Below are positions 14,017-59,129 of a DNA stretch of 64,000 nucleotides, in pieces (position 1 is the first letter of the stretch; each line of letters opens with the position of its first letter). The position numbers and the translations under genes were made by a program. The stretch spans positions 1,674,001 to 1,738,000 of the forward strand of contig NZ_JALKBW010000001.1 of assembly GCF_023017165.1 (NCBI RefSeq), given 5' to 3'. The DNA is from Gordonia alkaliphila. GTDB taxonomy: Bacteria > Actinomycetota > Actinomycetes > Mycobacteriales > Mycobacteriaceae. Under the pieces are notes generated by a model. That model worked only from the letters and a program-made list of their open reading frames with translations, did no database searches and was not told the DNA's origin.

Positions 14017-14018
14017 CC

Positions 14019-42162: not shown

Positions 42163-43356
42163 GTGGCGGTGCAACGAGAATGGCTCGACCGTGACTTCTA
42201 CTCCGATCTGGGCGTCGCTTCGGACGCTTCGGCCAGTGACATCAAGAAGGCCTACCGGAAGTTGGCGGCACAGCTGCACCCGGACCGGAATCCCGGTGAC
42301 AGCGCAGCCGAAGAACGTTTCAAGAAGGTCTCCGAAGCCAACAGCGTCCTGTCGGACGCGGAGAAGCGCAAGGAGTACGACGAAGCGCGCGCGCTCATGG
42401 CCAGCGGACGATTCCGCGGCGACGGGGCCGGCGGATTCGGCGGTGGCGGCTACACCACCACCGGCGGTGCCGGGGGCTTCGACCTCGGTGACCTGTTCGG
42501 CGGTGCGGGCGGCGGCGCCGGCATGGGCGGCTTCGACTTCGGCGACATCTTCGGCGGAGGCGGCCGATCACGTTCCCGAACGCGCCAGCAGCAACCGCAG
42601 CGACCGCGCCGCGGCAACGATCTGGAGACCGAGACCACCCTCGCCTTCCGCGATGCGGTCAAGGGCAACACGATCAGCCTGCGGGTGACCAGCCCGTCGC
42701 CGTGCACCACGTGTCACGGCAGCGGCGCCAAGCCGGGCACCAGCCCGCGCACCTGCACCTCGTGCAACGGCACCGGTTTCCTGCAGCGGGACCAGGGACA
42801 CTTCGGCTTCGCCGAGCCCGATCCCGAGTGCCAGGGCACCGGCACCAAGATCGACGAGCCGTGCGCCGACTGCTCCGGCAGCGGCGTGCAGGTCCGACCG
42901 CGCACCATCAACGTGAAGATCCCGGTCGGCGTCGAGGACGGCCAGCGCATCCGGCTGACCGGTCAGGGTGAGGCCGGACGCCGCGGCGCTCCGTCGGGCG
43001 ACCTGTACGTCACCGTGCACATCACGCCGGACCGGCTGTTCACTCGCAGCGGGCACGACCTGAAACTGCAACTGCCGGTGAGCATCTCGGAACTGGTGCT
43101 GGGCACCACGGTGTCGGTGCCGACGCTCGACGGTTCGGTGGGCGTGAAGATTCCGCCGAACACCGCCGACGGCCGGACGTTGCGGCTCAAGGGCCGCGGC
43201 GTGCCGAAGCGGGCCGGTGGCGTGGGCGACCTGCTGGTGACCGTGAAGGTCGCGGTACCGCCGAAGCTCGACGACTCCGCGGTGGAGGCGATGAAGGCCT
43301 ATGCCGCAGCCGAGCAGGCCGCGGGCTTCGATCCTCGGGCGGGCTGGGGGCGGTGA
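42163..43356 (+). CDS. dnaJ: Chaperone DnaJ with an altered third zinc-finger repeat
   Basis: 397 residues. The GTG start follows a near-perfect ribosome site, AAGGAGGTGA (42147-42156), at 6 nt. J domain at about residues 10-75 with HPD in [10 protein letters not shown], then a Gly/Phe-rich region. Zinc repeats are [25 protein letters not shown] and CADCSGSG. The third should begin with Cys, but residue 220 is Asp (GAT at 42820-42822), so the second zinc site lacks one ligand. The C-terminal peptide-binding domains are complete. DnaJ delivers clients to DnaK and stimulates its ATPase. Confidence 0.96.
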
Positions 43357-43362
43357 TCGGGT

Positions 43363-43800
43363 ATGCGCGAGAGCAAGAGCGAACGCGCCGGCTCGACGCC
43401 GCAGCGGCCGGTGCGTGAGAGCCCGTCGGTTCCGGACTCGGCCACCTTCCTGATCTCGGTGGCCGCCGAACTCGCCGGCATGCATGCGCAGACCCTGCGC
43501 ACCTACGACCGGCTCGGCCTGGTGACCCCGAAACGGACCCGGGGCGGCGGTCGTCGCTACTCGCAGGGCGACGTCGATCGCTTGCGGGAGATCCAGCGGT
43601 TGTCGCAGGACGAGGGTGTGAACCTGGCGGGCATCAAACGGATCATCGAGCTGAGCGACCAGGTGGCGGCACTGCACCGCGAGGTGGAGGTGCTGACCGC
43701 GCACGGCGCAGGTCGTGGGCGTCCGCCCGGCGAGTTGGTGCACGTGGAGCGTTCGAGCTCCGTGGTGCTCTGGCAGCCGCGTCGTCGTCGAGCCGAGTAA
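43363..43800 (+). CDS. hspR: HspR, MerR-family heat-shock repressor
   Basis: 145 residues, starting 6 bp after the dnaJ stop. The MerR HTH is FLISVAAELAGMHAQTLRTY, then DRLGLVTPKRTRGGGRRYSQ. The rest is a short helix (LREIQRLSQDEGVNLAGI) and a basic C-terminus. In Streptomyces and mycobacteria HspR binds HAIR sites, with DnaK as co-repressor. Two HAIR sites precede dnaK here, giving a complete autoregulatory circuit. Confidence 0.96.
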   Translation: MRESKSERAGSTPQRPVRESPSVPDSATFLISVAAELAGMHAQTLRTYDRLGLVTPKRTRGGGRRYSQGDVDRLREIQRLSQDEGVNLAGIKRIIELSDQVAALHREVEVLTAHGAGRGRPPGELVHVERSSSVVLWQPRRRRAE

Positions 43801-43827
43801 TCGGTCGGCCCACCACGACTGCTATTC

Positions 43828-43864
43828 ACGGCCCCGTCGCGTCAGTGCTGAGCGACGGGGTCGT
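43828..43864. terminator. Bidirectional terminator between hspR and flavohaemoglobin genes
   Basis: 13-bp stem with one G-T pair: ACGGCCCCGTCGC (43828-43840) / GCGACGGGGTCGT (43852-43864). The right arm lies inside the last codons of the convergent flavohaemoglobin-like gene. Confidence 0.75.
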
Positions 43865-45002
43865 GGTGCATCCGATCGCTGGGCACCCCCGCCAGCCGCA
43901 GCCGCAGCTTGGTGGAGATCACCATGTCCGGCGGCCCGGCGATGAGCACCTGGCGGTCGGACCAGTCGGCGTACCGCGCGGCGACGTCGCCGACCTTGCC
44001 GCGGGCGATCGACACGCCCCACTGACTGGGGTCCACGGCGCCGCTGATCCACCAGGGATCGGTCGGCTCCTCGACCACGCCGGTGAGGGTGAGCCACGGG
44101 TTGGTGGTGGCGAGTTCGCGCAGCATGGCGAGGTCGTACAGCTCGCCCGGGAAGCGCGCCCCGTAGAAGAGATGCGTGGGCGGGGTGTCGGCCCTACGCG
44201 CCATCTCCAGGAGCAGGGCGCGCAGCGGGGCCAGTCCGGTGCCGCCGGCCACCATCAGCACGGGCCGGTCGCGGTCGATGCGCAGCCGTCCGTGCGACTG
44301 CGCGAAGGTCCACACGTCGCCGGGTGCGGTCTCGGCCACGACGGCGGCGCTGAACGCACCGCCCGGCACGGCGCGCACGTGGAACTCGAGCTCGCCGGCG
44401 TCGTTCGGCGGGATCGCGGGCGACAGGTTGCGCCACACGTGCGGCCACTGCGGGATCTGCGTCTCCAGGTACTGGCCGGAGTGGAACGGCGGCATCGGAT
44501 CGACGGCCACCAGGCGGATCACGGCGCGCTCGCGGTTGATGGTGAACTTCTGCACCACGCGCGCCCGCCAGGTGGCCGGGCCCTCCACCGTCTGCGCGGC
44601 GCCGCGCATCACGCCGGTGGTCAGGAGCATGCCCTGGGCCACGGTCTCGGCGGATTCGGTGTTCCACTCGGTGCCGAGCAGCCGCGCGGACTCGGTGACC
44701 AGCGCCTGCGCCATCTGGTTGTAGTGGGCGTCGGTGACCCCATACTTGCGGTGGTCCCGCCCCAGCTGCGCGAGCAGTTCGATGAGCTCCTCGTGCCCGG
44801 AGTCGCCGGGAAGTACGTCGAGCACGTGGTCGAGAACGTCGACGAAGGCCTCGCGGACGTGACTCATGTGCGCGGGGAACAGGTCGCGCAACTCCGGCGA
44901 GTTGCCGAAGAATCGCGCAAAGACCTTCTGCGCGAAGCCGTCTCGGTCCGCGTCAATCAGGTCCCGCAGCCGGTGCAGCACCGGTGGAGTTGCTCCGCTC
45001 AC
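43842..45002 (-). CDS. Flavohaemoglobin-like protein (globin plus ferredoxin-reductase domains)
   Basis: 386 residues from GTG at 45002, preceded by GGAAGGAG at 8 nt; upstream in-frame ATGs lack this site. The N-terminal globin (about 1-145) has the F-helix pattern LGRDHRKYGV with the proximal His. The reductase half has an FAD domain in which the usual RxYS is RNLS (Tyr replaced by Leu) and an NAD domain with VAGGTGLAPLRAL and LIAGPPDMV. Typical flavohaemoglobins detoxify nitric oxide; the changed FAD motif resembles the atypical type II group of actinobacteria, for which D-lactate oxidation has been proposed. It is divergent from the amidohydrolase gene. Confidence 0.87.
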   Translation of the reverse strand: MSGATPPVLHRLRDLIDADRDGFAQKVFARFFGNSPELRDLFPAHMSHVREAFVDVLDHVLDVLPGDSGHEELIELLAQLGRDHRKYGVTDAHYNQMAQALVTESARLLGTEWNTESAETVAQGMLLTTGVMRGAAQTVEGPATWRARVVQKFTINRERAVIRLVAVDPMPPFHSGQYLETQIPQWPHVWRNLSPAIPPNDAGELEFHVRAVPGGAFSAAVVAETAPGDVWTFAQSHGRLRIDRDRPVLMVAGGTGLAPLRALLLEMARRADTPPTHLFYGARFPGELYDLAMLRELATTNPWLTLTGVVEEPTDPWWISGAVDPSQWGVSIARGKVGDVAARYADWSDRQVLIAGPPDMVISTKLRLRLAGVPSDRMHHDPVAQH

Positions 45003-45071
45003 GTCCTTCGCTCCTTCCCGGGCACCGTCGGCATCGCCCCTCGGCGTCGCTCGCATCGACGTCACACAGTC

Positions 45072-45088
45072 GACTACACAGAGTAGTC
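45072..45088. promoter_or_regulatory. Dyad in the flavohaemoglobin/amidohydrolase intergenic region
   Basis: GACTAC-ACAGA-GTAGTC, perfect 6-bp arms, 70 bp upstream of the flavohaemoglobin start and 62 bp upstream of the divergent gene. Candidate operator for one or both. Confidence 0.45.
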
Positions 45089-45149
45089 CGGTCGGTCTCG
45101 TCGTGCCGTCGGCGCGCGCCGCGCACGCGAATGTGGCACGCTGAAAAGG

Positions 45150-46286
45150 GTGGCGACCTTGGCTGGACGTGTACCGGGGATCGTGGACGCTCATGTGAAC
45201 TTCTTCGATCCGCGGAGACCGCCGTGGGGTCTGCCGCGCATCGGCCGGGTGCCGACGCCGATTCTGCGCGCGCTGCCCGATCCGCTCGTGCGCTTGGCCA
45301 CCCGGATCGCCGATGAGCAGAGTCTCAGCGGAGTCGCGGGCCCGGGTCTGCTGTCTGCGCGCTATCAGATGCGCGAGTATGTGCGCGACACGGCGGGACT
45401 GGCCTCGGTGGCCGGAGTTCCGGTCGCTGCGGTGCTGCCGGTGGACGCGCAGTGGCGGCGGCGGGTGTCGATCAATGAGGCGCCCGAAGCGATCGCTGAA
45501 GACATGCGCACCCTGCGGGAGCTGTCTTACGGCGCCCCGTCGCCCGCACTGGGCGGACTGATCGTCCCCGGCGACGAACGCGTCGCCGGACTGGGTGTGC
45601 GCACGGTGCTCGACGACGAGGAAAGCTTGATCCGCGGCGTGCGACTGCGCTGGGGACGGCATCCGGACCCGCTGGTGCGCGACTGGTCCACCGAACCGGA
45701 TGCGCTCGGCTCGCCGATCTTCCGGAAGGCCTTCGCCCGGCTCGCCGAGCGCGGGCTGATCTTCGAATCCCTGTGTTACTCACACGAACTGGCGCAACTG
45801 GCCGACCTGGCCTCGGAGTTCCCGGAGACCACGATCGTCGTCGAGCACCTGGGGCTGCCGGTCGGCGTCTTCGGGCCCATCGGCAGTTCGACGGGCGCGA
45901 CGGCCGCCGCGCGGGCGGACATCCTGAGCCTGTGGCGCGAGCGGATGGCCATGCTCGCGGCTCGGCCGAACGTGCTGGTGAAGATCAGCGGTATCGCCTC
46001 GCAACTCCTCGGTTACGGCGACGAGAAGGCGGGGAACATCGGCGGGCAACGCATCCTGGCCGACATGATCGGGCCGCTGGTGCTGCACGTGGTGGACCGC
46101 TTCGGTCCCGAGCGGGTGATCTTCGGCTCCAATGCGCCGCTGGACAGTCACAACGCGACGATCGGCGTGACCGTCGGCGCGCTGCTCGACGTCCTGGGTC
46201 CGCGTGGCGACTACCTGCTTGCCCACCTGTTCGCCGAGAACGCGCAGCGCGTCTACCGGATTCCGCCGGCCGCCACCGAGGGCTGA
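45150..46286 (+). CDS. Amidohydrolase-2 family (TIM-barrel) hydrolase
   Basis: 378 residues from GTG at 45150; a later start is possible since the AAAAGGG lies very close. Amidohydrolase-2 (PF04909) pattern: VDAHVNFFDP near the N-terminus (HxH replaced by HVN), IVVEHLGLPVG, VLVKISGIASQL and a late FGSNAPLDS. The fuconolactonase/2-pyrone-4,6-dicarboxylate lactonase branch shows similar blocks. The first metal motif lacks its second His, so metal binding may be altered or absent. The substrate is unknown; its stop codon is 4 bp from that of the convergent GH gene. Confidence 0.82.
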   Translation: MATLAGRVPGIVDAHVNFFDPRRPPWGLPRIGRVPTPILRALPDPLVRLATRIADEQSLSGVAGPGLLSARYQMREYVRDTAGLASVAGVPVAAVLPVDAQWRRRVSINEAPEAIAEDMRTLRELSYGAPSPALGGLIVPGDERVAGLGVRTVLDDEESLIRGVRLRWGRHPDPLVRDWSTEPDALGSPIFRKAFARLAERGLIFESLCYSHELAQLADLASEFPETTIVVEHLGLPVGVFGPIGSSTGATAAARADILSLWRERMAMLAARPNVLVKISGIASQLLGYGDEKAGNIGGQRILADMIGPLVLHVVDRFGPERVIFGSNAPLDSHNATIGVTVGALLDVLGPRGDYLLAHLFAENAQRVYRIPPAATEG

Positions 46287-46290: not shown

Positions 46291-47385
46291 TCAGTTCAGA
46301 CGGGGCCACAGCGGGTCGCCCGGACCGATGTCGTAGGTGCATTCGGAGGGGCGCGGGTCGGGCACGTACGACCACACGAGAGCGCCCGCGCCGCCGAGAT
46401 CGCGGGCCGTGTCGATCTGCGCGCGAAGCAGATCTGCGCGTTGGGCCAGGGGACGGCACGATCCGGCCTCGATACCCACCTCGGCGACCAGCAGCGGCTT
46501 GTGCACGTCCTTCGCGATCTCGATGCGAGCGGGCAGTCGTGCGTCGACGGGGACCAGGGCATCGGTGGGGTACAGGTGATACTCGAGGACGTCGATCCCC
46601 GGGGACGCGCCGAGGTTCGCGTAGGCCGGGCCCGCGCTGCCGCACTGGTCACCGCCCAGCAGGCCGGCGAATATGAGGTGGTCGGGATCGATCTCGTCGA
46701 TCAGCGCACCGACGTCGTCGTAGAAGGTGCGCAGCACCTCGGCTGCGTCTGGTGCACAGGTCCGGCCGCTCGGTGCGGTGCATGCGGCGTCGAGGCAGGT
46801 CACGGGCTCGGGCTCGCCGACCGCCGTCCAGCCGACCAGAGCGGGAGCGTCGTGCCAGCGCTGCACCGCCGTGCGCACCCAGTCGGCGTAGCTGCCGTGC
46901 GCGCTGGCCTGCCGGGTACGCCACTGCCCCCGATAGAAGTCGATGTCTTTGACGGTCTCACCGTCGCAGGCGCCGTCGCCGGACGCCAGGACGGGCAGCA
47001 CCAACTGGTCGTGACGGGCGGCCGCCGCGAACACCGCGTCGGCGGCGGCGTAGTCGATGGTGCCGTCGTCGGAGCGGACCGTCGACGGCGCGAGGAGCGC
47101 GAATCGGGTCAGCGAACGTGCTGGGAGAGCGCCGAAGTACTCGTCCAGGTTCACTTGCGCGCCGCAGCCGACATTGAGCGACCAGTCGGTGGTGAGCTGG
47201 TAGGCGTTGTAGCCGACCGGCCACCAGGGCTCACCGTCGAGCAACAGTCGAGTGCTGTCGACGGTGACCGCGGCGACCGGTTCGGTGGTCGTCGGCCGAT
47301 CGTCGCCGCGAACGACGACGCCGACGGCGAGCGCGATCACCGCGACGACGACGACGAACAGGTCGCCGGCAGCTGCGCGTCTCAC
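46291..47385 (-). CDS. Membrane-anchored GH5-like glycoside hydrolase, exopolysaccharide operon gene 5
   Basis: 364 residues from GTG at 47385, overlapping the preceding stop as GTGA. An N-terminal helix (FVVVVAVIALAVGVVV) anchors or exports it. The rest looks like a (beta/alpha)8 clan-A hydrolase: PVGYNAYQL at strand 1, GWTAVGEPEPV with the presumed acid/base Glu, YHLYPTD, and LLVAEVGIE with the presumed nucleophile Glu. Cys residues suggest disulfides. Polysaccharide synthase operons commonly encode such a hydrolase to trim or release the polymer (BcsZ, for cellulose). The specificity, perhaps mannan or glucan, is not readable. Confidence 0.83.
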   Translation of the reverse strand: MRRAAAGDLFVVVVAVIALAVGVVVRGDDRPTTTEPVAAVTVDSTRLLLDGEPWWPVGYNAYQLTTDWSLNVGCGAQVNLDEYFGALPARSLTRFALLAPSTVRSDDGTIDYAAADAVFAAAARHDQLVLPVLASGDGACDGETVKDIDFYRGQWRTRQASAHGSYADWVRTAVQRWHDAPALVGWTAVGEPEPVTCLDAACTAPSGRTCAPDAAEVLRTFYDDVGALIDEIDPDHLIFAGLLGGDQCGSAGPAYANLGASPGIDVLEYHLYPTDALVPVDARLPARIEIAKDVHKPLLVAEVGIEAGSCRPLAQRADLLRAQIDTARDLGGAGALVWSYVPDPRPSECTYDIGPGDPLWPRLN

Positions 47386-49109
47386 GGGAGCTCGACCTGG
47401 CGGGGTAGGACGCGATAGATCCGCCAGTCCGGGAGGTCCGCTCCCTGATTGGGCGCCTCCAGCGTGAGGACGCCCACGTCGGCGCCGTTCTCGTACAGCG
47501 TCGGGTAGCGGAGGTTGAGCGCGTCCGAGCGTCCGCGCCCGGTGTTGGGCACACTGAGCAGATATTGGACGCGGTACCGTGCGGGATCGTTGAGGATCTC
47601 CGCGAAGTCCTGGTCGGACGGGATGACGAACTGGCTGGGTCGGGCCGACCTGGCCACCACCGCGAACCCGTAGACGGTATCGGTGAGCACCGCGCCGTCG
47701 GGGAGGTCGAGGGCGTCGAGGTACTCGGCGAGTTGGCGTTCGGTGGAGAACGACCGGGCCACTGTGCGGGCGTCGAGGTGCACCGGGTCCACCGAGTCGG
47801 GCTGCGGGTGGACGATGGTGGCGAGCGCGAACTCCTGCGGCGCGTACCGGGGCGAGGTGATCCCGACCGCGGTGACGCCGATCGCCGCCACCATGGTGAC
47901 CGCGGCGAGTGCCGCCGCAGCCGCCGACCGCAGCCGGTGGCGACCGGGCGGTAAGAGGGGCGGCACTTGGGCGTCGTGTCCGAGACGACGGTGCGGCACG
48001 GTGCGGCGTTCGGGCACGGCGAGCAACGCGACGGTGGCCATCAGCGGCACCACCGCGAGATAGAAGCGCAGGAAGCCGAAGGTGGAGCCGAGCGCGTAGG
48101 TCGAGGTCTGGAAGGCGAGGACCGCGCCACCGGCGACGATGGCTGCCACCAGGGGGCGGAGGCGGCGTCGTCGCCACCGCCACACTGCGACGACGGCCAA
48201 CAGCACGGGAAGGAGCGGGGCCAGCAGGAACATCTCGGTGAACGAGAAGCCGAGCGCCGACCCGAGGGAGGACGAGCCGCTGCCGCCCGATTCGGCGATG
48301 ATCGCCGCGTTGCCGTACTCGGAGGTGAACTGGGCGAGCAGTTCGCCGTTGATGATCCAACTGGTGAGTGACCAGACCACGAAGGCTGCGGCCGCGGGCA
48401 GGAGCACCAGTCCGGCGTCGATCAGCGCGCGGTCCCGACGTCGGGTCCGATCCGGGCGTCGATATGTCACGGTGGCGACGAAGACTGCGGTGATCACCGC
48501 GGCCGCGCCCAGGTCGTAGCGGGTGAGGAAGCCCAGGGCGAGTGCGATGCCGGCGGTGACGAGGTCGTGGACGTCGTCGGTGTCCACCCAGCGGATCACC
48601 CGGCGCGCCGTCCACAGCAGGAAGAACAACGACGGCGCTTCGCTCATGCCGTTCGCGGCGTAGAGCACGATCATCGGGTTCACCGCGTAGGCGGCGACGA
48701 CGATCGCCAGCAATACGGGTGGCACCCCGCGATCACGGCCGATCCCGTAGAGCATCGCCACGGACCCGGCCATGAACGCCGACGACATGATGACGGCCGA
48801 CAGTGCATCAACGGTGAGTATCGGGAACACTGGCGACACGGCGATCAACGGCAGTTGGACCAGCGCCGTCAGCGGCGTGAAGATGAAGCCGATCGCCGAC
48901 AGGTGCGGATCGCGGCTGAACAGGACGCTCTGCGCGGCCTGCACACGGGAGAGCGCGTCGCCGAAGAAAAACTGCTGGTCCACAGCGAGGTAGTAGCCCA
49001 CCGTCAGGTACGCCAACCAGCACAGCGCGAAGACCAGCCACCCGTTCGGGCGCAACCTGGTGCGACGGCGCTGCATGTCCCGCTGTCGCGCCCGGTCCGG
49101 GGCGGTCAC
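47382..49109 (-). CDS. GT-C-type polytopic glycosyltransferase, exopolysaccharide operon gene 4
   Basis: 575 residues from GTG at 49109, overlapping the GT2 stop as GTGA; an internal ATG occurs 11 codons later. About eleven membrane helices in the first 400 residues, with an early luminal-loop motif FFFGDALSRVQAA that fits the acidic catalytic motif of GT-C enzymes (ArnT/PMT/GT39 type), which use polyprenyl-phosphate sugars. The C-terminal 170 residues are soluble and extracytoplasmic. It probably adds a side residue to the polymer or its lipid acceptor (inference). Confidence 0.83.
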   Translation of the reverse strand: MTAPDRARQRDMQRRRTRLRPNGWLVFALCWLAYLTVGYYLAVDQQFFFGDALSRVQAAQSVLFSRDPHLSAIGFIFTPLTALVQLPLIAVSPVFPILTVDALSAVIMSSAFMAGSVAMLYGIGRDRGVPPVLLAIVVAAYAVNPMIVLYAANGMSEAPSLFFLLWTARRVIRWVDTDDVHDLVTAGIALALGFLTRYDLGAAAVITAVFVATVTYRRPDRTRRRDRALIDAGLVLLPAAAAFVVWSLTSWIINGELLAQFTSEYGNAAIIAESGGSGSSSLGSALGFSFTEMFLLAPLLPVLLAVVAVWRWRRRRLRPLVAAIVAGGAVLAFQTSTYALGSTFGFLRFYLAVVPLMATVALLAVPERRTVPHRRLGHDAQVPPLLPPGRHRLRSAAAAALAAVTMVAAIGVTAVGITSPRYAPQEFALATIVHPQPDSVDPVHLDARTVARSFSTERQLAEYLDALDLPDGAVLTDTVYGFAVVARSARPSQFVIPSDQDFAEILNDPARYRVQYLLSVPNTGRGRSDALNLRYPTLYENGADVGVLTLEAPNQGADLPDWRIYRVLPRQVELP

Positions 49110-50632
49110 GGCGCTGCGCTCGCGGCGCCGTCGGGGTCGGCGGCCTCGTCGTTCTTCGTGCTGCTGCTCGTGAGGCCGTGGACGGTCTTCTCCCAGTACG
49201 ACGGGCTGGTGATCAGCTGCCACATGCCCTTGATCGCGGCGATCGACATGAGGACCCAGTAGAACGGGACGATCAGCGCCGACCAGAACAGCTCGGGACG
49301 ACGTTCCTCCCGGATGGCGACGATGTTCATGTAGATCATCGCGCTGTTGCCGATCACCAGGGAGATCAGCGCCAGGTAGTAGACGGGCCCGGGGAACAGG
49401 GCGGCGATCGCGGTCGGTTCACCGCTGATCCAGATCACCAGAATGAGCCAGAACGCCATGTTGACGCAGGCGATCAGCGGGGTGCCGGCCAACAACATGG
49501 TGAACCGGTAGACCTGCACCGCGCCGAGCGTCCGCCACAACTGGAGGGGATGGCGCATGTGGACCAACCACGTCTGCATGTAGCCCTTGTACCAGCGCGA
49601 ACGCTGGCGAATCCAGTTGATGCCGTCGACATTGGCTTCTTCGATCGTCACCGAGTCGATCACCTCGGTGCGATAGCCGCGCGCCGCGATCCGGATGCCG
49701 AGGTCGGCGTCCTCGGTCACGTTGTGCGGATCCCACGCGCCGATCTCGTCGAGCAGGGTGCGTCGGAAATGGTTCGACGTGCCGCCCAGCGGGATGGGCG
49801 AACGACTGGCCATGATGCCGGGGAGCAGCGTGCCGAACCAGATGCCGTAGTCGGCGGTGAACCAGCGGGTGAGCAGGTTGTCGGTGGCGTTGTGGAAGGA
49901 GAGTTTGCCCTGCACGCACACCACGTCGTCGTCGGCATCCTCGAAGGCGGCGGCCACGCGGCGCAGTTGCAGTGGATCGGGTTCGTCCTCGGCGTCGTAG
50001 ATGGTGATGATCTCACCGGTCGCGAAGGCCATGCCGTAGTTGCAGGCCTTGGGTTTGGTGCGCGGCTCGGCCGGCGGCACCAGCACCACGGTGACGATCG
50101 GATCCTCGCCCATGCTGCGCGCCGCCTCGATGGTGGGCGTGTCGTCGGCCTCCAACAGCAGGAGCACCTGGATCTTCTCCTGCGGATACTCCAGCGCCCG
50201 CATGTGGGCGATCAGGTCGCCGATCACCTCGGGTTCGCCGTAGGCGGGCACCAGCACCGTGTAGGTGGGCAGCGCGTCGTCGTCGATGGCGCGGGCGCGT
50301 TCGTCGGTCACGGCGATGGCGCCGTTGACCAGGCCGCGTCGAAACAGGAGCAGGCGGTCGGTCATCGCCAGGATGTAGACGACGGTCATCAGCGAGACGA
50401 CGGTCGCGGCGGTCGGCAGAGGCCAGAGCACGGCAGCCACCGCGGCCACCGCGGCCACCGCGAATCCGATGGTCTTCTGCGGCCGAGTGAAGGCGACGGC
50501 GGCCGAAGCATCCGGAAAACGTGTGCGCAGCCCGTCGACGGCTTCGACGAGCGCGGCCTGACAGTAATCGTCGTTCGCCATCAGTTCGGCGACGGGGCGG
50601 GTGGCCGGGGAACCGGCGGGGTGGCTGATCAT
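49106..50632 (-). CDS. Processive GT2 glycosyltransferase (BcsA-like), exopolysaccharide operon gene 3
   Basis: 508 residues from ATG at 50632, overlapping the upstream stop by 4 nt. An N-terminal soluble stretch of 65 residues precedes two helices. The GT-A domain follows with VLVPAYGEPEVI, the metal-binding DAEDEPDP (DxD), VTEDADLGIRI (TED) and IRQRSRWYKGYMQTW (QxxRW), the full set for a processive synthase. Four or more C-terminal helices form the export channel. There is no PilZ domain, so c-di-GMP control of this subunit is unlikely. The product is a beta-linked homopolymer or repeating glycan. Confidence 0.94.
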   Translation of the reverse strand: MISHPAGSPATRPVAELMANDDYCQAALVEAVDGLRTRFPDASAAVAFTRPQKTIGFAVAAVAAVAAVLWPLPTAATVVSLMTVVYILAMTDRLLLFRRGLVNGAIAVTDERARAIDDDALPTYTVLVPAYGEPEVIGDLIAHMRALEYPQEKIQVLLLLEADDTPTIEAARSMGEDPIVTVVLVPPAEPRTKPKACNYGMAFATGEIITIYDAEDEPDPLQLRRVAAAFEDADDDVVCVQGKLSFHNATDNLLTRWFTADYGIWFGTLLPGIMASRSPIPLGGTSNHFRRTLLDEIGAWDPHNVTEDADLGIRIAARGYRTEVIDSVTIEEANVDGINWIRQRSRWYKGYMQTWLVHMRHPLQLWRTLGAVQVYRFTMLLAGTPLIACVNMAFWLILVIWISGEPTAIAALFPGPVYYLALISLVIGNSAMIYMNIVAIREERRPELFWSALIVPFYWVLMSIAAIKGMWQLITSPSYWEKTVHGLTSSSTKNDEAADPDGAASAAP

Positions 50633-52161
50633 CGCGATCTCTCGGCGGCGGCGATCTGGGTGTCGATCAGGTCGCCGGCCAATTTCACGAGGAGGTCGTA
50701 ATCCTTGAACCGGGGGTCGAGATCCTGGGTGACGGCGTTGCCGCGGAAGACGCGGGTCAAGATGTCGTTGACGAGATCCAGTGTCTCCTCCGGTCGGCGC
50801 AGCTGCAGGAACTGTGCCGTCGGCTCGTGGTTGTCCACCGAGATCAGGGTGACCTCTTGCGTCCTTCGGCCGTTGTTCCACCGCCACGACAGCGCGTTGT
50901 AGGTGAGTAGACGCTGGTCGTCGACCACGGTGGACAGGGTGCCGAGGATCCCATGCGGCAGCTCGACGGGCCGGCCGATCGAGGTGCGGACACCGGAGAC
51001 CGCATAGCGCACGGAGGCCGGATAGATGTCGAAGGTGAGCGGCACGGCGGACTCGACGGCGTCGACCACCACGCGCCGTGGCCGGGCGTGCACGTCGAAC
51101 GCCGGATCGCCGACGTTCTGCTCCAGGATCTGGCGCATCCCCGTCGCCTGCCAGCCGTTCACGGTGGCCGGAAACGGGCCGGTGGCCTCGATCTGCCGCC
51201 AGCCGGACGGCACCAGCAGCGGTGGTTCGCTGCGCATGCCCGCGATGTACACACCGTCGTTCGGCGTCACCGTCGGCGCGCCGATCAGGTTCAAGACCAC
51301 GGTGAACACGATCAGGATCAGGGTGCCGGTGCGGTTGTCGGCGGCGGTGGGCGGTCGTACGTCCCGGTGCGGCAGCGGTTTGAGCGTCCGATCGGGGAAC
51401 CGGCGCTGCACGTACGCGAAGATCGCGATCGCGGCGCCGCAGCCGAACGCGGGCACCCAGTGGTACACCGCGAGACCGGCCTCCGGCGCCACCAGGAGCA
51501 GGACGGCGAGCACCGCGGCGCCCGAGAACGCCGCGGCGACGGCGCCGATGACAGCGCGCCGACGGGTGGTGCCGACGGCCACTGCGGTGGCTGCGACGCC
51601 CAGCACCAACATCACGACGCCGGCGTCCAGGCGACTGTTGCCGAGCGAGATCACCAGCACCCGGTACGGCAGCGGGAACAGGGACAGGCTCAGCACCCAC
51701 ACCCACCGGTAGCGGAGGGCGGGGCGCAATCCGAACAGCAGCACGCAGCCGGCGAACAGGAAGACCACCAGTGCCAGCAGGTCCGTGCGGGTCATCAGGT
51801 AGGCGGGCAGGTAGCGGCGATTCAACAGGCCCAGCAGCGCGGTCGCGAGGATCAGCGTCACGATGCCGACGATGTGGTCGGTGTCCCGGTCGTAGATCGG
51901 CGGTTCGTTCTCGTGCCGGACGCTCACGCCGATGGCGGCGAGCACGCACAGCCCCGCGGCCGCCGGGAGGTAGGTGAGCAGAGTGCCCTCGCCGAGTTCC
52001 ATCCCGACCGATCCGAGGGTGTCCCAGAAGGCCGCGACGGTCAGGATCAGCAGCGCCGACCACCGCCACGCGAGGACGACGAGCGGGCGCTCCCGCAGCG
52101 GCGTCCGCGCTACGGACGCCTCATCCGATGGAGCCGGTGCGTGCGGCGCCGGTGCGGTCAC
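50629..52161 (-). CDS. Polytopic membrane protein of unknown function, exopolysaccharide operon gene 2
   Basis: 510 residues, GTG at 52161 overlapping the bcsB-like stop (GTGA). About ten helices occupy residues 30-280, followed by an extracytoplasmic domain of roughly 220 residues after one more helix. The membrane half, with a DTDHIVG loop, LRPALRYRWVW, then LSLFPLPYRV, resembles the outline of exosortases, but the catalytic Cys-Ser-Gly-x-Arg motif is missing. I therefore give no function. Its place between BcsB-like and synthase genes suggests a structural or export subunit. Confidence 0.82.
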   Translation of the reverse strand: MTAPAPHAPAPSDEASVARTPLRERPLVVLAWRWSALLILTVAAFWDTLGSVGMELGEGTLLTYLPAAAGLCVLAAIGVSVRHENEPPIYDRDTDHIVGIVTLILATALLGLLNRRYLPAYLMTRTDLLALVVFLFAGCVLLFGLRPALRYRWVWVLSLSLFPLPYRVLVISLGNSRLDAGVVMLVLGVAATAVAVGTTRRRAVIGAVAAAFSGAAVLAVLLLVAPEAGLAVYHWVPAFGCGAAIAIFAYVQRRFPDRTLKPLPHRDVRPPTAADNRTGTLILIVFTVVLNLIGAPTVTPNDGVYIAGMRSEPPLLVPSGWRQIEATGPFPATVNGWQATGMRQILEQNVGDPAFDVHARPRRVVVDAVESAVPLTFDIYPASVRYAVSGVRTSIGRPVELPHGILGTLSTVVDDQRLLTYNALSWRWNNGRRTQEVTLISVDNHEPTAQFLQLRRPEETLDLVNDILTRVFRGNAVTQDLDPRFKDYDLLVKLAGDLIDTQIAAAERSR

Positions 52162-54098
52162 GGCCCGGCGTCGGCGTCACCGGGTGCCGGTCGTCGGCCC
52201 CGGCGCCGCAGGATCAGGGCGCTGCTGACCAGGGCGGCCACCGCGACCGCTGCGCCGATCCCGATCCATGCCCCGGTGGACAGTCCGCGGTCCGCCTCGT
52301 GGGCGATGGTCGGCGGAACCGCCAGCACCGGCTGCTGGTCGGCGGTCTGCAGCAGGGCGGTGCCGTCGAGCGCCGACCATCGGTTCTGGTCGTCGTCGAG
52401 CCACGTCAAGGCGGTGTCGAGGAGCTCAGGTGCGCCCGTCGAGGTGGCCACCAGGACGGTGCGGTCGTTCTGGCGGACCACCTGGAGCGAACCGAACGGG
52501 ACCTGCGGGATGTTCGTCACCGCGGGGCCGCCGCCCACATAGTTCACCGTGATCTCGCCCTGCCCGGTGCGCTTGACCGGTAGCGGTAGGTCGCCGAGGC
52601 CCTCGCCGTCGGCGGCGATCAGTACCGCGGGCAGCTTCGGATTGAGCGCCGAAACCGCCACCGTGTCGATGCCCAGCGGCGTCGCCGACATCCGCTGCAG
52701 GCCGGTCACGATCTGCACGGCGCGGCCGATGTCGGCGAGGTCCCCGGTGGTCCAGGCCAGCTGGGTCCGCGGCAGCAGCGTTTGCGGGAGCGAGCCGAAA
52801 CCGGGCGGAACGGGCGGGTCGGCGGGCGTGGATTCGACGAGGCCGTCCGCGGACAGCGACAGGCTGGTCCGGTGGGCGTCGCCGCAGAGGGTTCCGCTGT
52901 CGCCGCGCTCGACGGTGACGGTGACGTCGGTGAAGCGGTTGACGGCGTCGGGCAGCGTCACCCAGGTGTCGAAGCCGCCGTGCGACTCGGTCGGCCACGA
53001 GTCCACGACGGTGTCGCCGGCGCGGACCACCACGCGGCCCCCGCTGCCGGACGGCGGCGGGGTGTAGGTGCCGCGCAACTGGATACGGACGTCCTTGACG
53101 GGCCGTCCGATGCGGGTCTGGTCGATGCCGATCGACAGCGACGGCCAGCCCGTGGTGGTGACCTGCTGGTCGGTGACATCGAGGTCGGCCAACGTGGTGA
53201 CGGCGCGCGGCAGCTGCGGGGCGGCCACGCCGGGACCGGGGACCGCGGCGGCGGCCATGGCCAACGACGACAGGTCCGAGGTGAGGAAGGCCGCGGTCCG
53301 GCTCAGGTCCGGTCCGCCCAGCGTCAGGTAGCGGTCGTCGACCACCGCCAGGCCCGCCGTGAGGTCCTCGGCGATCACGATCTGCCGTTCGAACGGACTC
53401 GTCGCGACCGGCGGGCGCAGGGCGGTGCGCGGCAGGGAGCGGGTGACGATCTGCACGGGCACGTTCTGGTACCGGGCGACGACGGCGGCGGCCACGTCCA
53501 CCGCCGCGGCGCCCTCGGCCTCGCGCGGATCGCTCGGCACGTACAGGGTCAGCTTGGTGAGTACCGGCGGCAGGAAGTCGCCGACTGTGCGGACGCCGGC
53601 GGGTCGTCCGGCGAACTCGATACGGGCATCGGTGAGTCGGAAGGCCTGGGCGGGATCGAACTGGCAGAAGCCGTCGGTGCGCAGGTAGCTCTGCAGAGTC
53701 AGATTCGCCGAGTTGGTCCTCTCGTCCACGCGAAGTCCGGTCAGCGGCAGCGCGATCGCCGCGTTCGGCGTGGTCGGCACCGCGGTGCGGGAGATCAGGC
53801 GCTCGCCCTGCCGGACGTCGACGGTGCCGCCGGTGACCCACGGCGGCAGCGCGACGGTGCCGCGCAGCACGGTCGGCGCGGTGCCGGGCGGCACCGAGAC
53901 GGTCAGCGGGTACGCGTAATCCTGGCCGGGCAGGGTCACCGTCGCTCCGGCGCCGAGGTAGTCGAGTCCGATGCTCAGGCCGGCGCCGCTGTTGGTCGGC
54001 GCGCCGGCGTCGTCGGGGGCGGCGAGCGCGAGACCCGGACCGCCGCCGACCAGTAGTAGCGCCAGGCCGACTGTGACTGCCGCTATCGTTCGTCGCAT
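52158..54098 (-). CDS. BcsB-like exopolysaccharide periplasmic subunit, operon gene 1
   Basis: 646 residues from ATG at 54098. A signal peptide (RRTIAAVTVGLALLLVGG ending ALAAP) is followed by about 560 extracytoplasmic residues and a C-terminal helix (WIGIGAAVAVAALVSSALIL) with an Arg tail. BcsB (PF03170) features are visible: alternating carbohydrate-binding-like (GTVALPPWV, LRGTYTPPPSG) and flavodoxin-like segments (RQIVIAEDL). BcsB binds the emerging glucan and supports BcsA. As first gene of the five-gene operon it implies a cellulose-type secretion mode in this organism. Confidence 0.88.
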   Translation of the reverse strand: MRRTIAAVTVGLALLLVGGGPGLALAAPDDAGAPTNSGAGLSIGLDYLGAGATVTLPGQDYAYPLTVSVPPGTAPTVLRGTVALPPWVTGGTVDVRQGERLISRTAVPTTPNAAIALPLTGLRVDERTNSANLTLQSYLRTDGFCQFDPAQAFRLTDARIEFAGRPAGVRTVGDFLPPVLTKLTLYVPSDPREAEGAAAVDVAAAVVARYQNVPVQIVTRSLPRTALRPPVATSPFERQIVIAEDLTAGLAVVDDRYLTLGGPDLSRTAAFLTSDLSSLAMAAAAVPGPGVAAPQLPRAVTTLADLDVTDQQVTTTGWPSLSIGIDQTRIGRPVKDVRIQLRGTYTPPPSGSGGRVVVRAGDTVVDSWPTESHGGFDTWVTLPDAVNRFTDVTVTVERGDSGTLCGDAHRTSLSLSADGLVESTPADPPVPPGFGSLPQTLLPRTQLAWTTGDLADIGRAVQIVTGLQRMSATPLGIDTVAVSALNPKLPAVLIAADGEGLGDLPLPVKRTGQGEITVNYVGGGPAVTNIPQVPFGSLQVVRQNDRTVLVATSTGAPELLDTALTWLDDDQNRWSALDGTALLQTADQQPVLAVPPTIAHEADRGLSTGAWIGIGAAVAVAALVSSALILRRRGRRPAPGDADAGP

Positions 54099-54194: not shown

Positions 54195-55064
54195 ATGGGA
54201 ATCTTTTTGGTCACCGGCTCGGCGTCGGGCATGGGTGCGCAGACCGCGCAACGGCTGCGGGCCGAGGGGCATCGAGTGATCGGCGTGGACCGCGCCGACG
54301 CCGAGGTGGTGGCCGATCTGTCCACCCCGGAGGGTCGGCAAAGGGCGATCGACGAGGTGTTGGGCAGCTGCGACGGGGTGCTCGACGGCGCGGTGCTGGC
54401 CGCCGGTCTCGGACCCAAGCCGGGTGCCGAGCGGACGATCGTCGAGGTGAACGTGCTCGGTGTCACCGAGTTGCTGACCGGTCTGCGCCCCGCGCTGGCG
54501 AAGTCGGAGAAGGCCAAGGTGGTGGTGATCGGCTCCAACTCGACCACGTCCACGCCGTTGGTGCCCCGTCGTGCGATCCGGCAGTTGCTGCGCGGCGACA
54601 CCGAGGGGGCGGCGCGGACACTCCGTCGTCGTGGTCCGCTATCGGCGCCGGCTGCGTACGCCGCATCCAAGCTGGCGGTGAGCTACTGGTGCCGCCGTGA
54701 AGCGGTGTCGGCGGCGTGGGCGGGTGCCGGTATCCGGCTGAATCTGCTGGCCCCCGGGCCGGTGCTGACGCCGCTGTTGCGGGGCCAGCTCGCCAGCGGC
54801 ACCGGCAAGCAGGTGCGGTCGTTCCCGGTGCCCGCGCGCGAGTACGGCACGCCCGAGCAGATCGACGAATGGATCGCCGTGATGCTGTCGCCGGCCGCGG
54901 ACTTCATGGTCGGCTCGGTGATCACCGTCGACGGCGGCACCGAGGCGCTGCTGCGCCCGCGGGACTGGCCGGCTCGTCTTCCGCTGCCGGAGCTGCCCCG
55001 GATGCTGTGGTCGATGTACAAGGCGCCCGCGCGCGGGCAGGTGGCCGACTACTCCGACGTCTGA
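54195..55064 (+). CDS. Short-chain dehydrogenase/reductase
   Basis: 289 residues from ATG at 54195. Classical SDR motifs: TGSASGMGAQT nucleotide loop, VLAAGLG in place of NNAG, the Ser region VVIGSNSTTS and catalytic YAASKLA. An insertion of about 20 residues (RQLLRGDTEGAARTL) between the last two motifs and the C-terminal AEDGGTEA-like VDGGTEALL fit the 3-alpha-hydroxysteroid-dehydrogenase-like subgroup, suggesting a steroid or other alicyclic alcohol (weak). Its end overlaps the convergent TetR gene by 16 nt. Confidence 0.9.
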   Translation: MGIFLVTGSASGMGAQTAQRLRAEGHRVIGVDRADAEVVADLSTPEGRQRAIDEVLGSCDGVLDGAVLAAGLGPKPGAERTIVEVNVLGVTELLTGLRPALAKSEKAKVVVIGSNSTTSTPLVPRRAIRQLLRGDTEGAARTLRRRGPLSAPAAYAASKLAVSYWCRREAVSAAWAGAGIRLNLLAPGPVLTPLLRGQLASGTGKQVRSFPVPAREYGTPEQIDEWIAVMLSPAADFMVGSVITVDGGTEALLRPRDWPARLPLPELPRMLWSMYKAPARGQVADYSDV

Positions 55065-55678
55065 GCGGCGGCCGCCATCGACGCGGCCAGCGCTTCCTGC
55101 ACGTACGGATCGGTCATCAGCAGGTGGCGCATGCTCCATTCGAGGTCGGCCAGGTCGGTGCCGGCCCCCTCGTGGCCGATCAGCAGCAGCATCGACGTGG
55201 CGGCCAGTCGCTCGGCGTGCTCGGCGGGAACGCCGAGTTCGCAGGTGTAGCGGGCGACGGCCACGCGCCGCTTCTCGTCGACGGCGAGCAGGGCGGCGCG
55301 CACGTCGTCGTCGCTCGCCGCCCACACGCGCAGGGCAGCCTCGGAGCGGTGCGGTAGGCCGAGCGCGACGGCGATGAGCGCTTCGACCCGCTCGTGCGGG
55401 GACGGCTGGACGTCGAGCCAGGCCACGAGCCGGTCCGTCGCCTCGCTGCGCCAGTGCGCGATGAGGGCGGTTTCGAAGGCCTTCCAGTTGCGGAACGAGT
55501 GGTAGAAAGCGCCGGTGGTGAGGCCGGTCTCGGCGCACACCGCCGCCTGCTTGAAGCCGCCGTAGCCGTCGCGCGCCAGGACCTGCATGCCCGCCGCCAG
55601 GAAGCGGTCGCGCAGCGGCGAGGACTCCTCGGCTGCTTGTTCACGCTGTTCACGGCTCATGTCCATCGATTCTGCCAT
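55049..55678 (-). CDS. TetR-family regulator, divergent from DUF2236/DUF4334 genes
   Basis: About 209 residues from ATG at 55678; an upstream in-frame ATG (55732) would run through the operator and was rejected. TetR HTH at about residues 22-65: RDRFLAAGMQVLARDGYGGF, then QAAVCAETGLTTGAFYHSF. The C-terminal domain is a helical ligand pocket of unknown specificity. The palindrome at 55706-55721 between it and the divergent oxygenase gene is its probable binding site. Confidence 0.92.
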   Translation of the reverse strand: MAESMDMSREQREQAAEESSPLRDRFLAAGMQVLARDGYGGFKQAAVCAETGLTTGAFYHSFRNWKAFETALIAHWRSEATDRLVAWLDVQPSPHERVEALIAVALGLPHRSEAALRVWAASDDDVRAALLAVDEKRRVAVARYTCELGVPAEHAERLAATSMLLLIGHEGAGTDLADLEWSMRHLLMTDPYVQEALAASMAAAAQTSE

Positions 55679-55705
55679 GTTCGGCGGCGACCCCTTGCCA
55701 GGCGG

Positions 55706-55721
55706 CATAAGTTGACTTATG
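55706..55721. promoter_or_regulatory. TetR operator candidate
   Basis: CATAAGT-TG-ACTTATG: perfect 7-bp arms with a 2-bp centre, 28 bp upstream of the TetR start and 31 bp upstream of the divergent DUF2236 gene. Confidence 0.8.
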
Positions 55722-55752
55722 GTGAGGTGCACGGCAACGAAAGGTCATCACC

Positions 55753-56658
55753 ATGCTTCGCTGGGATCGCAATCGCGGACTGGACCCGCGCACCGACTAC
55801 GAGCAGATCTACCGCAACCTCTCGCAGTACGACTTCCCGTGGGACTTCAACCAGGCGCTCAGCTTCGCGCTCTTCCGCACCTATGCGGTGCCGAGCGTCG
55901 GGCGACTGCTGTACGAGTCGGGGGGCTTCGCCGACACGCAGAAGCGGTACGACGACACCGCGATCCTGCTGGAGCGGCCGCTCATCTGCGGCTTCGATTC
56001 GGCCGAGGGCAAGACCGCGCTGCGTCGGATCAACCAGATGCACCGCGCGTACGACATCTCCAACGACGACATGCTGTACGTGCTCGCCACCTTCGTGGTG
56101 GTGCCCAAGCGGTGGATCGACGACTACGGCTGGCGCACGATGACCTACGACGAAGTCACCGCGACGGTGCACTTCTACCGCAAGCTCGGTCGGCACATGA
56201 ACATCAAGGACATGCCGGAGACCTACGAGGAGTTCGCCGACCTGCTCGACGACTACGAGGCCGAGCACTTCGCGTACGACGAGGGCGGCCGCAAGGTGGC
56301 CGACATGACGCTGGATCTGCTGAGCACCTTCTACCCCAAGGCGCTGCACCCGGTGGTGGACCAGTTCTCCCGGTCGCTGATGGACGAGCCGCTGCTGGAG
56401 GCCTTCCGCTATGCGGCGCCGTCGCCCATCGTGCGACGAATCTCGTTGGGCGCCATGGCCGCTCGCGCCGCGTTCCTGCGTCTCATGCCGCCGCGGTTGC
56501 GGGCCAAGGACTTCGAGCACAGTCGCCGCATGAAGACCTATCGGTCGGGCGAAGTGGTGACCGAACAGCTCGGTACCTTCCCGGGCGGATGCCCTGTGCC
56601 GCATGGCGTTTCGGGTGAGGACACGGCGTCGACGGCCGATCCGGCTACGGTGGCGTGA
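55753..56658 (+). CDS. MpaB-like oxygenase family protein (DUF2236), copy 1
   Basis: 301 residues. DUF2236 (PF09995) features include the FALFRTYAVPSVGRLLYESGG start, AYDISNDDMLYVLATFVV, and the diagnostic GRHMNIKDMPETYEEF stretch near residue 155. The fungal relative MpaB oxidatively cleaves an acyl side chain; the latex-clearing protein Lcp also belongs here and uses haem b. The candidate haem ligands here are His and Lys/Arg residues that cannot be assigned safely. Its stop overlaps the DUF4334 start, and a TetR gene is divergent, so this is a small inducible catabolic unit. Confidence 0.88.
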   Translation: MLRWDRNRGLDPRTDYEQIYRNLSQYDFPWDFNQALSFALFRTYAVPSVGRLLYESGGFADTQKRYDDTAILLERPLICGFDSAEGKTALRRINQMHRAYDISNDDMLYVLATFVVVPKRWIDDYGWRTMTYDEVTATVHFYRKLGRHMNIKDMPETYEEFADLLDDYEAEHFAYDEGGRKVADMTLDLLSTFYPKALHPVVDQFSRSLMDEPLLEAFRYAAPSPIVRRISLGAMAARAAFLRLMPPRLRAKDFEHSRRMKTYRSGEVVTEQLGTFPGGCPVPHGVSGEDTASTADPATVA

Positions 56659-57179
56659 TGACCGATGTGCTGACCCTGCAGGCCGGCGTCGACGCCGTCG
56701 CCGCCGAGGACCTCTTCGACTCCCTGCCGCCGGTGGCCGTCGAGCAGATCCTCGGGACGTGGCACGGCAGCGAGGTCCCCACCGGTCACGCGATGGACGG
56801 GCTGCTCGACGTGTCCGGCTGGTACGGCAAGCGTTTCGCGTCGGCCGAGGAGGTGCACCCGTTGCTGTTCGGCGCGCCGGGATCGCTGTACGCGGTGAAC
56901 CCCAAGCTGCTGCCGCTCGGCACGCTGAACCGCTTCGGCGACACGGTGCCCAAGGTGCTGCCGCCGGGTGGCCGCGCGGCGTTCCGCCTGCTGCGCACCC
57001 GCAAGTACCGCGCCCGCCTGCGCGAGGTGTCGTACCGGGGACAGGTCAGCGCGGCCATGGTCTACGACGACCTGCCGATCATCGACCACTTCCGCCTCCT
57101 CGCGCCGGACACCCTCCTCGGCGCGATGGACACGCGGAACTCGCCGCACCCGTACTTCTTCCTCCTCGAGCGCGCCTGA
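56658..57179 (+). CDS. DUF4334 (GXWXG) domain protein
   Basis: 173 residues from ATG at 56658; a GTG one codon earlier (56655) overlaps the DUF2236 stop and could also serve. The N-terminal GXWXG-like segment is ILGTWHGSEVPTGH; the DUF4334 part contains LREVSYRGQVSAAMVYDDLP and IDHFRLL, ending LGAMDTRNSPHPYFFLLER. The family is of unknown function and often neighbours lipid or steroid catabolic genes in actinobacteria. Translational coupling with the DUF2236 gene implies joint function, perhaps handling its product. Confidence 0.85.
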   Translation: MTDVLTLQAGVDAVAAEDLFDSLPPVAVEQILGTWHGSEVPTGHAMDGLLDVSGWYGKRFASAEEVHPLLFGAPGSLYAVNPKLLPLGTLNRFGDTVPKVLPPGGRAAFRLLRTRKYRARLREVSYRGQVSAAMVYDDLPIIDHFRLLAPDTLLGAMDTRNSPHPYFFLLERA

Positions 57180-57213
57180 CCCCGCGCCCGCCTCTCCCAG
57201 CCACGCGGGGGTC
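57178..57213 (+). terminator. Terminator after the DUF4334 gene
   Basis: GACCCCGCG (57178-57186) pairs with CGCGGGGGTC (57204-57213) with one bulged G; the hairpin begins at the stop codon. Confidence 0.55.
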
Positions 57214-57272
57214 GGAGGGGCTGGTAGGGTCGGAGCGTCGGTGGGAGCGCCGACGGCGAGGAGAGGGAAGCG

Positions 57273-58096
57273 ATGTCGGACGTGTTGATCGGGGTAAGCG
57301 ACCTGGCCGAGGCCATGCTGGGGCCGCGGCCGCCGGTGGTGCTCGACGTGCGGTGGCAGTTGGGGTCCGACGACGGGTTCGCCCGCTACAAGGCGGGGCA
57401 CCTGCCGGGTGCGGTCTACGTCGACCTGAATACCGAGCTGGCGGCGCCGCCGAGCGCGGAACAGGGCCGTCACCCGCTGCCCCACCTCGACACGCTGCAG
57501 GCCGCCGCCCGCCGGTGGGGCATCGACTTCGGCGTGCCCGTGGTGGTCTACGACGACGCCGGCGGCACCGTCGCCGCGCGTGCGTGGTGGCTACTGCGCT
57601 GGGCCGGCATCGCGCAGGTCCAGCTGCTCGACGGCGGACTGGGTGCCTGGCGCGACGCCGGGATGCGATTGTCCTCCGGCGATGCCGTGCCGCGCGTCGG
57701 CAATGTGACACTGACCGGCGGGTGCCTGCCCGTCGCCGACATCGACGAGGTCGCCGGGACGCAGGCGCTGCTGCTGGATGCCCGCGCGGCTGAGCGCTAC
57801 CGCGGCGAGGTGGAGCCGGTGGATCCGCGGCCGGCCACATCCCGGGTTCGGTGAGCGCGCCGACCACCGAAAACCTCACTGCCACAGGCACTTTCCGTTC
57901 CGCCGACGAACTGCGGGCGCGTTTCGCCGCGCTCGGTGCCGATTCCCGGCCGGTCGTCGTCTACTGCGGTTCCGGCGTCAACGCGGCGCACGAGATCGCG
58001 GCGCTGGAGGTCGCCGGGATCGACGGCGCCGCGCTGTACCCGGGTTCCTACTCGCAGTGGTCGTCGGACCCGCAGCGCCGCGTCGACACCGCCTGA
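57273..58096 (+). pseudogene. Thiosulfate/3-mercaptopyruvate sulfurtransferase (rhodanese), frameshifted
   Basis: Two rhodanese domains. The first (to about residue 140) is inactive-type: VVLDVRWQLG, YKAGHLPGAVYVDLN and VVVYDDAGG, with Asp where Cys would be. The second has the active loop CGSGVNAAHE, VVVYCGSGV. The frame breaks at 57831-57836: one G is missing in CCGGCC, and restoring it gives RPGHIPGSVSAPT and a protein of about 274 residues, normal for this family. The GTG start of the second part at 57851 is not a real start. It probably transfers sulfane sulfur to cyanide or thiols in the cytoplasm. Confidence 0.85.
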
Positions 58097-58103
58097 TCCG
58101 GAC

Positions 58104-59042: not shown

Positions 59043-59129
59043 GACTTCCTCCAGATACGGCGGCCTACATATCGCCCTGACCCTAACCGATGGCGCGCAC
59101 CTACCGTGCCGTGAGACAAGATTGTAGAT

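Follow-up and report, generated by a model that had tools for sequence, protein, structure and literature searches.

A probable synthase-dependent exopolysaccharide operon with a putative exosortase-derived subunit in Gordonia alkaliphila

Relation to described polysaccharide systems

Five adjoining genes on the minus strand of a 64,000-nt stretch of the Gordonia alkaliphila genome (hereafter, the window), running from 54098 to 46291, resemble two described systems for polysaccharide synthesis and export: the cellulose system Bcs (BcsA–BcsB and BcsZ) and the PssA–E system of Listeria monocytogenes. With Bcs they share a family 2 glycosyltransferase (GT2) with TED and QxxRW motifs and flanking hydrophobic helices, a BcsB-like protein predicted by modelling to have the same overall fold, and an extracytoplasmic glycosidase. 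The GT2 differs from BcsA, however, in belonging to a separate clade, in having DxE, and in having no PilZ domain. The operon as a whole differs in having no BcsC, in encoding a hydrolase that resembles mannanases of glycoside hydrolase family 5 (GH5) rather than BcsZ (GH8), and in two extra subunits, an apparently exosortase-derived membrane protein and a GT-C type glycosyltransferase. The Listeria system is likewise encoded by a Gram-positive exopolysaccharide operon, in which pssC–pssD combine a BcsB orthologue with a GT2 that cannot plainly be called a cellulose synthase (PMC4125290). It includes a cyclic di-GMP (c-di-GMP) receptor, PssE, to which nothing in the window operon corresponds, and the passages covered from that account mention neither an exosortase-like protein nor a GT-C enzyme.

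Loss of the outer-membrane pore is described as common among Gram-positives in a survey of synthase-dependent operons (PMC7112194); in the window operon, the absence of both a PilZ domain and BcsC, noted in the initial annotation, was borne out. For mycobacteria, two papers report cellulose-like material in biofilms, call its machinery unknown, list putative cellulose synthase genes in M. neoaurum and M. cosmeticum, and say that M. tuberculosis has neither BcsA nor BcsB (PMC12167362, PMC6364259). Literature searches, whose reach excluded most subscription journals, found no published account of the present operon. The earlier view that it has no characterised equivalent thus stands as far as print goes, but Listeria PssA–E, with its GT2 and BcsB orthologue, is the nearest working analogue.

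The operon most likely encodes a synthase-dependent machine that builds a long chain of sugars, decorates it and sends it out of the cell, and the broad reading of BcsB-assisted polysaccharide secretion, working like cellulose synthase without being one, appears to be right. Gene content and conserved synteny both agree with the initial annotation, which saw in this Mycobacteriales genome an operon for synthase-dependent exopolysaccharide production. A fuller explanation, to which we give about an even chance, adds that the backbone would be β-1,4-mannan or glucomannan built from GDP-mannose and that the second gene product would be non-catalytic; the polymer might serve a surface or biofilm function. 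The window has a G+C content of 69.1% and the host genome comprises 3.85 Mb. All five reading frames (g1–g5, encoding P0001–P0005) were found on the minus strand with matching coordinates, and every junction is a 4-nt overlap, as had been claimed (g1/g2, GTGA; g2/g3, ATGA; g3/g4, GTGA; g4/g5, GTGA).

The synthase and its membrane partners

The GT2 encoded by g3 (49106..50632, ATG start, 508 residues) has hydrophobic helices at residues 54–91, followed by the glycosyltransferase domain and further transmembrane (TM) helices. A Pfam scan returned four GT2-type models and nothing else, with matches to PF13632 and PF13641 and none to PilZ or MshEN. Its TED (306–308) and QRSRW (343–347) motifs were read correctly in the initial annotation; the reported DxD is instead DAED (213–216), since the HMMER alignment places FDADH of BcsA opposite YDAED of P0003, so that the second Asp of BcsA corresponds to Glu215. 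All three motifs are invariant in 21 of 21 aligned GT2s. In a tree of 40 GT2s (from 30 of 80 loci, three same-genus loci, the window, Geobacillus and five outgroups), the window protein and 34 relatives form a clade of 35 rows with support 98/95, spanning nine phyla by label, apart from E. coli BcsA, PgaC and NfrB and from a rhizobial curdlan synthase; with the E. coli sequences on very long branches, the tree is to be read for separateness only. DAED occurs in 34 of the 35 clade members (33 by pattern and the window by alignment; the Dormibacterota locus L077 has DVED), as does QRSRW, with no QxxRW found in L098. Eight relatives' GT2s were scanned for MshEN, a c-di-GMP domain: five passed the Pfam cut-off (Paenibacillus L082, which in this differs from the window GT2, Belnapia L117, Mucilaginibacter L112, Devosia L102 and Xanthomonas L090), two from Clostridium (L091 and L103) matched below it, and L088 gave no match.

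Comparison with named families places P0003 between several of them. The best NCBIfam models were CelA (62.5 bits), MftF (57.8), PgaC (56.6) and an XrtP-associated glycosyltransferase (54.1), all scores lying far under the model cut-offs. A single-sequence PDB search ranked BcsA first (E 4e-13) and 6yv7 next (2e-10); with the profile of alignment A3, 6yv7 came first (1.8e-14), level with a BcsA (2.7e-14). The 6yv7 entry is a crenarchaeal, non-processive mannosyltransferase of "minimal cellulose-synthase-like fold". The assignment as a processive synthase is therefore not clear-cut by closest family: CelA and the single-sequence search favour it, but non-polymerising MftF stands second and the profile puts 6yv7 level with BcsA. 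QxxRW and the BcsB partner tip the balance towards a processive enzyme, which would polymerise a nucleotide sugar at the inner membrane face and pass the product across by a TM channel of its own.

These comparisons bear on two other products. A machine of the same architecture for cellulose or another β-glucan, with a GT2 using UDP-glucose and an endoglucanase as hydrolase, would fit the leading place of CelA, the BcsA entries among the best PDB matches and the predicted BcsB fold of g1, as well as the putative cellulose synthase genes that PMC6364259 reports for some mycobacteria. We consider it unlikely, in view of a CelA (TIGR03030) score of 62.5 bits against a cut-off of 699.1, DxE in place of DxD, the missing PilZ domain, and a position outside both BcsA and the rhizobial curdlan synthase (98/95, with long outgroup branches). 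An amino-sugar polymer decorated by the GT-C enzyme, for example of β-N-acetylmannosamine or β-N-acetylhexosamine and akin to the poly-N-acetylmannosamine of the Listeria Pss system, seems improbable. PgaC does rank third in NCBIfam, but it and NfrB fall outside the GT2 clade on very long branches. The pairing of a GT2 with a BcsB orthologue in PssC–PssD, described in PMC4125290, speaks for such a polymer. Against it, Pfam and NCBIfam revealed no deacetylase, epimerase or N-acetylhexosamine enzyme among the five genes.

The first gene (g1; 52158..54098, ATG start, 646 residues) encodes an N-terminal hydrophobic helix, a region modelled as a BcsB fold across nearly its full length, and a C-terminal TM helix (612–630). 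By predicted fold P0001 is thus a BcsB, as annotated initially, and it may take up the chain outside the membrane and guide it. In 60 related loci (L071–L130; 56 of them outside Mycobacteriales, several on short contigs), a BcsB-type gene lies inside the fetched flanks of 28, or in 24 of 56 when the four Mycobacteriales loci are set aside; 23 were detected by phmmer, 22 of these within 1.4 kb of the GT2 gene, and five more by profile. The main profile counts cover L050–L129, and L130 was scanned separately. Of the cellulose-type export route proposed earlier, the export part is supported by BcsB; the cellulose part is not, as the synthase lies outside the BcsA clade and the hydrolase type, together with the nucleotide-sugar genes of relatives, points to mannose.

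The fourth gene (g4; 47382..49109, GTG start, 575 residues, eight predicted TM helices) matches PF13231 (PMT_2) at 8e-7, above the gathering cut-off, and this upholds its description as a GT-C enzyme. Residues D51 and R55 are invariant in 20 of 20 sequences of alignment A4, and the g4 profile finds matches, some weak, in 35 of 59 loci (L071–L129; 31 of 55 without the four from Mycobacteriales). P0004 may take sugars from a polyprenyl-phosphate donor and attach them to the polymer as side residues at the outer face; DPM-type polyprenyl-phosphate sugar synthases (GT2 plus GtrA domain) near the GT2 gene in L083, L091 and L071 fit such a lipid-linked donor. A GT-C gene, present in all 20 of the named Mycobacteriales loci, would be superfluous for plain cellulose.

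The second gene (g2; 50629..52161, GTG start, 510 residues) had been left as an unknown membrane protein, which can now be replaced by a more specific description. P0002 has about nine TM helices and then an extracytoplasmic domain (about 305–505) with weak PsbP/Mog1-like resemblance. The profile of alignment A2 matches exosortases encoded in L072, L073 and L077 with E values of 1e-26 to 1e-32; against L073 two blocks align, one on either side of the catalytic stretch, the N-terminal one at 5e-24. These three proteins match PF09721 above gathering (L073 at 1e-18), and hhalign of g2 against two other exosortases gave a probability of 81.5 and E 1.2e-5, compared with a probability of 2.1 for a control GT-C alignment. 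By transitive homology g2 therefore appears to descend from an exosortase, although none of the 21 members of A2 matches PF09721 itself, a point against such ancestry. Compared with EpsH/XrtA (PF09721), its N-terminal TM half aligns with exosortases that, in Chloroflexota and Dormibacterota, adjoin the same GT2, and it adds a C-terminal extracytoplasmic domain that those GT2-adjoining exosortases also have; unlike them, it lacks the catalytic Cys/Arg/His stretch. P0002 contains no CSG motif and gave no significant match to a model of that stretch, and in 56 g2 rows of related loci the model match and motif occur in three, precisely the sources of the model. The former exosortase may act as a structural or chain-handling membrane subunit. 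If so, a sorting enzyme would have become a polymer-handling part of a polysaccharide machine. The occurrence of complete as well as gutted exosortases next to the same synthase provides a natural series that bears on why exosortases sit in exopolysaccharide loci.

In the L077 metagenome-assembled genome (Dormibacterota), a 1421-residue open frame (10180–14442) with β-propeller and DUF1349 matches lies near the intact exosortase and the GT2; visual inspection of its last 120 residues revealed no tail of the PEP-CTERM type.

A further explanation is a short lipid- or protein-linked envelope glycan, made by a GT2 of low processivity and attached with the aid of g2. The parent family of g2 couples membrane transit to covalent modification, and the first profile match, 6yv7, is a non-polymerising mannosyltransferase, with MftF second in NCBIfam. 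We regard this explanation as very unlikely, given that g2 has no catalytic stretch and that QxxRW and the BcsB partner indicate a polymer.

The hydrolase and the predicted sugar

The identity of the sugar is approached through the hydrolase and through the genes of relatives. The fifth gene (g5; 46291..47385, GTG start, 364 residues) encodes a GH5-like, mannanase-like protein with an N-terminal anchor. P0005 itself has no Pfam match, but nine of 19 g5 members match Cellulase (GH5; best 2.5e-4), the name that a β-glucan product would lead one to expect. All 13 PDB rows found by the profile of alignment A5 at E ≤0.1 are by name mannanases or mannosyl-acting GH5-type enzymes, led by 4awe (6.8e-10) and 1qno (8e-9); the single-sequence search was weaker (3wfl, 2.4e-4). 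The GH5-like designation is thereby supported, and the mannanase resemblance argues against cellulose and, since GH5 mannanases act on neutral mannans, against an amino-sugar polymer. Two residues that are the same in all 19 of 19 members, E191 and E302, align with E169 and E276, the catalytic glutamates of 1qno, so that g5 appears by alignment to resemble GH5 endo-β-1,4-mannanases at both catalytic positions.

The anchored g5 protein may trim or free the chain during synthesis, a role likened to that of BcsZ for cellulose and of membrane-anchored mannanases for plant glucomannan. A membrane anchor is common to g5 and the TM-anchored mannanases MAN2 and MAN5 of Arabidopsis, which are required for normal glucomannan synthesis (PMC13181414).

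The sugar donor is suggested by genes for GDP-mannose pyrophosphorylase-like (GMP-like) proteins, found inside the fetched flanks of 13 of the 60 loci L071–L130, namely 11 of 19 from Bacillota and two of two from Synergistota; 12 of the 13 lie within 3.5 kb of the GT2 gene. TIGR01479 is the best model for all 12 GMP-like proteins scanned (that of L097 is the unscanned thirteenth), with L098 and L100 passing its cut-off. Taken with the mannanase-like g5, these genes favour GDP-mannose as the donor for a β-1,4-mannan or glucomannan backbone by an argument from relatives, and they count against a β-glucan. The first place taken by the mannosyltransferase 6yv7 in the A3 profile search of PDB also speaks for the mannan assignment.

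Several observations weigh against this mannan assignment. By profile, the GT2 is as near to cellulose synthase as to 6yv7, and g4 has no PDB match at E ≤0.01. In g5, Gly190, conserved in 19 of 19 members, replaces the Asn that precedes the acid/base Glu in GH5 endo-β-1,4-mannanases, a change that may go with another specificity or with a lack of activity. The other ten of the 12 scanned GMP-like proteins fall below the NCBI cut-off, none of the 39 loci outside Bacillota and Synergistota has such a gene, and no nucleotide-sugar gene was seen among the scanned window neighbours (42163–46286 and 54195–59114). The two clues to mannose, mannanase resemblance and GDP-mannose genes, also stem from different phyla; g5 occurs in two of the 59 loci L071–L129 (Frankia L080 and Dormibacterota L077) and not in L130. 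Among family genomes with a g1 match, 20 of 132 have no g5 (three of those g1 matches being weak, E 1e-5 to 1e-4), nor do seven of 20 named Mycobacteriales loci, three of which are cut by contig ends.

Distribution and genomic context

Synteny is conserved in related genomes, in line with the initial annotation. All five genes stand together in 17 of 19 fetched same-genus loci (L021–L039), so the arrangement is not due to chance. Two of the 17 (L028 and L031) have one gene split over two frames; of the remaining two loci, L039 carries an internal deletion and L023 runs into the end of its contig. The hydrolase gene faces the GT-C gene from the other strand, converging on it, in 16 of the 17 complete loci, and it is co-directional in the window and L021 only. 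It is therefore better described as a neighbour and partner of the other four than as a constant fifth member of a single transcript. The best named matches of the GT2 are from Gordonia otitidis, G. desulfuricans and Gordonia sp. OPL2, whose loci share 74–83% DNA identity with the same-genus loci.

As a single query, g1 matched 19 of 36 other same-genus genomes (in one, G014, a remnant only) and none of 24 genomes from other families of the order. Matches to its profile, 132 among 301 family genomes, are spread over 21 of 31 genera. The hydrolase gene goes along with the system: at thresholds of 1e-20 for g5 and 1e-3 for g1, g5 occurs in 115 of the 301, in 112 together with g1 and in three alone, related genomes not being independent. 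In the 20 named Mycobacteriales loci (L050–L069), profiles find g2, the GT2 and GT-C in 20, g5 in 13 and g1 in 19, the exception being L053 on a short contig; no g5 was seen in the stretches fetched for the four Mycolicibacterium loci (L054, L056, L057 and L060). With its BcsB in 132 of 301 family genomes, the operon gives many Mycobacteriales other than M. tuberculosis a clear candidate for such machinery, with a testable sugar prediction. A wider proposal, which we put forward tentatively and regard as doubtful, is a pan-bacterial family of BcsB-dependent (gluco)mannan-type synthases beside those for cellulose, curdlan and poly-N-acetylglucosamine, with mycolic-acid bacteria having acquired an exosortase, lost its catalytic core and retained the remainder as a permanent subunit. 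Under this proposal the operon would also point to candidate genes behind the biofilm polymer resembling cellulose that many non-tuberculous mycobacteria, Rhodococcus and Nocardia form.

The Geobacillus stearothermophilus plasmid pEF60063-1 (L130) and kindred Bacillota loci resemble the window in having a same-clade GT2, 42.0% identical to P0003 in the plasmid, with BcsB next door. The plasmid cluster differs in its GMP-like gene, in an annotated GT39 gene unmatched by the g4 profile, and in giving no g2 or g5 match. Its GMP-like, BcsB, GT2 and GT39-annotated genes lie together (5138–11875), and as the plasmid was typed as conjugative, clusters of this kind may be able to move between hosts. 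On a Mycobacterium riyadhense plasmid (L131, 8590–10200), a GT2 40.8% identical to P0003 lies near a HAD-like hydrolase, with no BcsB or GT-C neighbours annotated.

In the window, a short-chain dehydrogenase (SDR) frame (54195–55064, plus strand) lies upstream of g1, divergent across a 96-nt gap, and an amidohydrolase frame (45150–46286, plus strand) lies downstream of g5 and convergent with it. Window flanks (42163–46286 and 54195–56658) were compared with the other loci using five genes, for DnaJ, flavohaemoglobin, amidohydrolase, SDR and an MPAB-type oxygenase. All five occur at L021 (genome G004) and none within the fetched stretch of the other 18 same-genus loci, while relatives of the DnaJ, flavohaemoglobin and amidohydrolase genes are present in L044, a region of G018 without the operon. 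With flanks common to the window and L021 only, and partly kept in the operon-free L044, the operon seems to have moved.

Four Gordonia genomes (L040–L043) carry a second, paralogous cluster in the order g2–GT2–BcsB–GT-C, with a BcsB identity of 28–29% and no g5 in the fetched stretch. In L039 (G014:C82, 3744–4726), the deletion joins the 5' part of BcsB (P0001 residues 43–143) to the 3' part of GT-C (P0004 residues 397–567), and the adjoining GH5-like gene is intact. Alignment A1 omits L039 as a remnant; A2 omits L028 (split g2), L039 and L043; A3 omits L023 (contig end), L031 (split GT2) and L039; A4 omits L023, L039 and, for unclear start codons, L027 and L035; and A5 omits L023. The split genes, g2 at L028 (8388–9892) and the GT2 at L031 (7062–8605), each extend over two frames, reflecting a frameshift or an assembly error.

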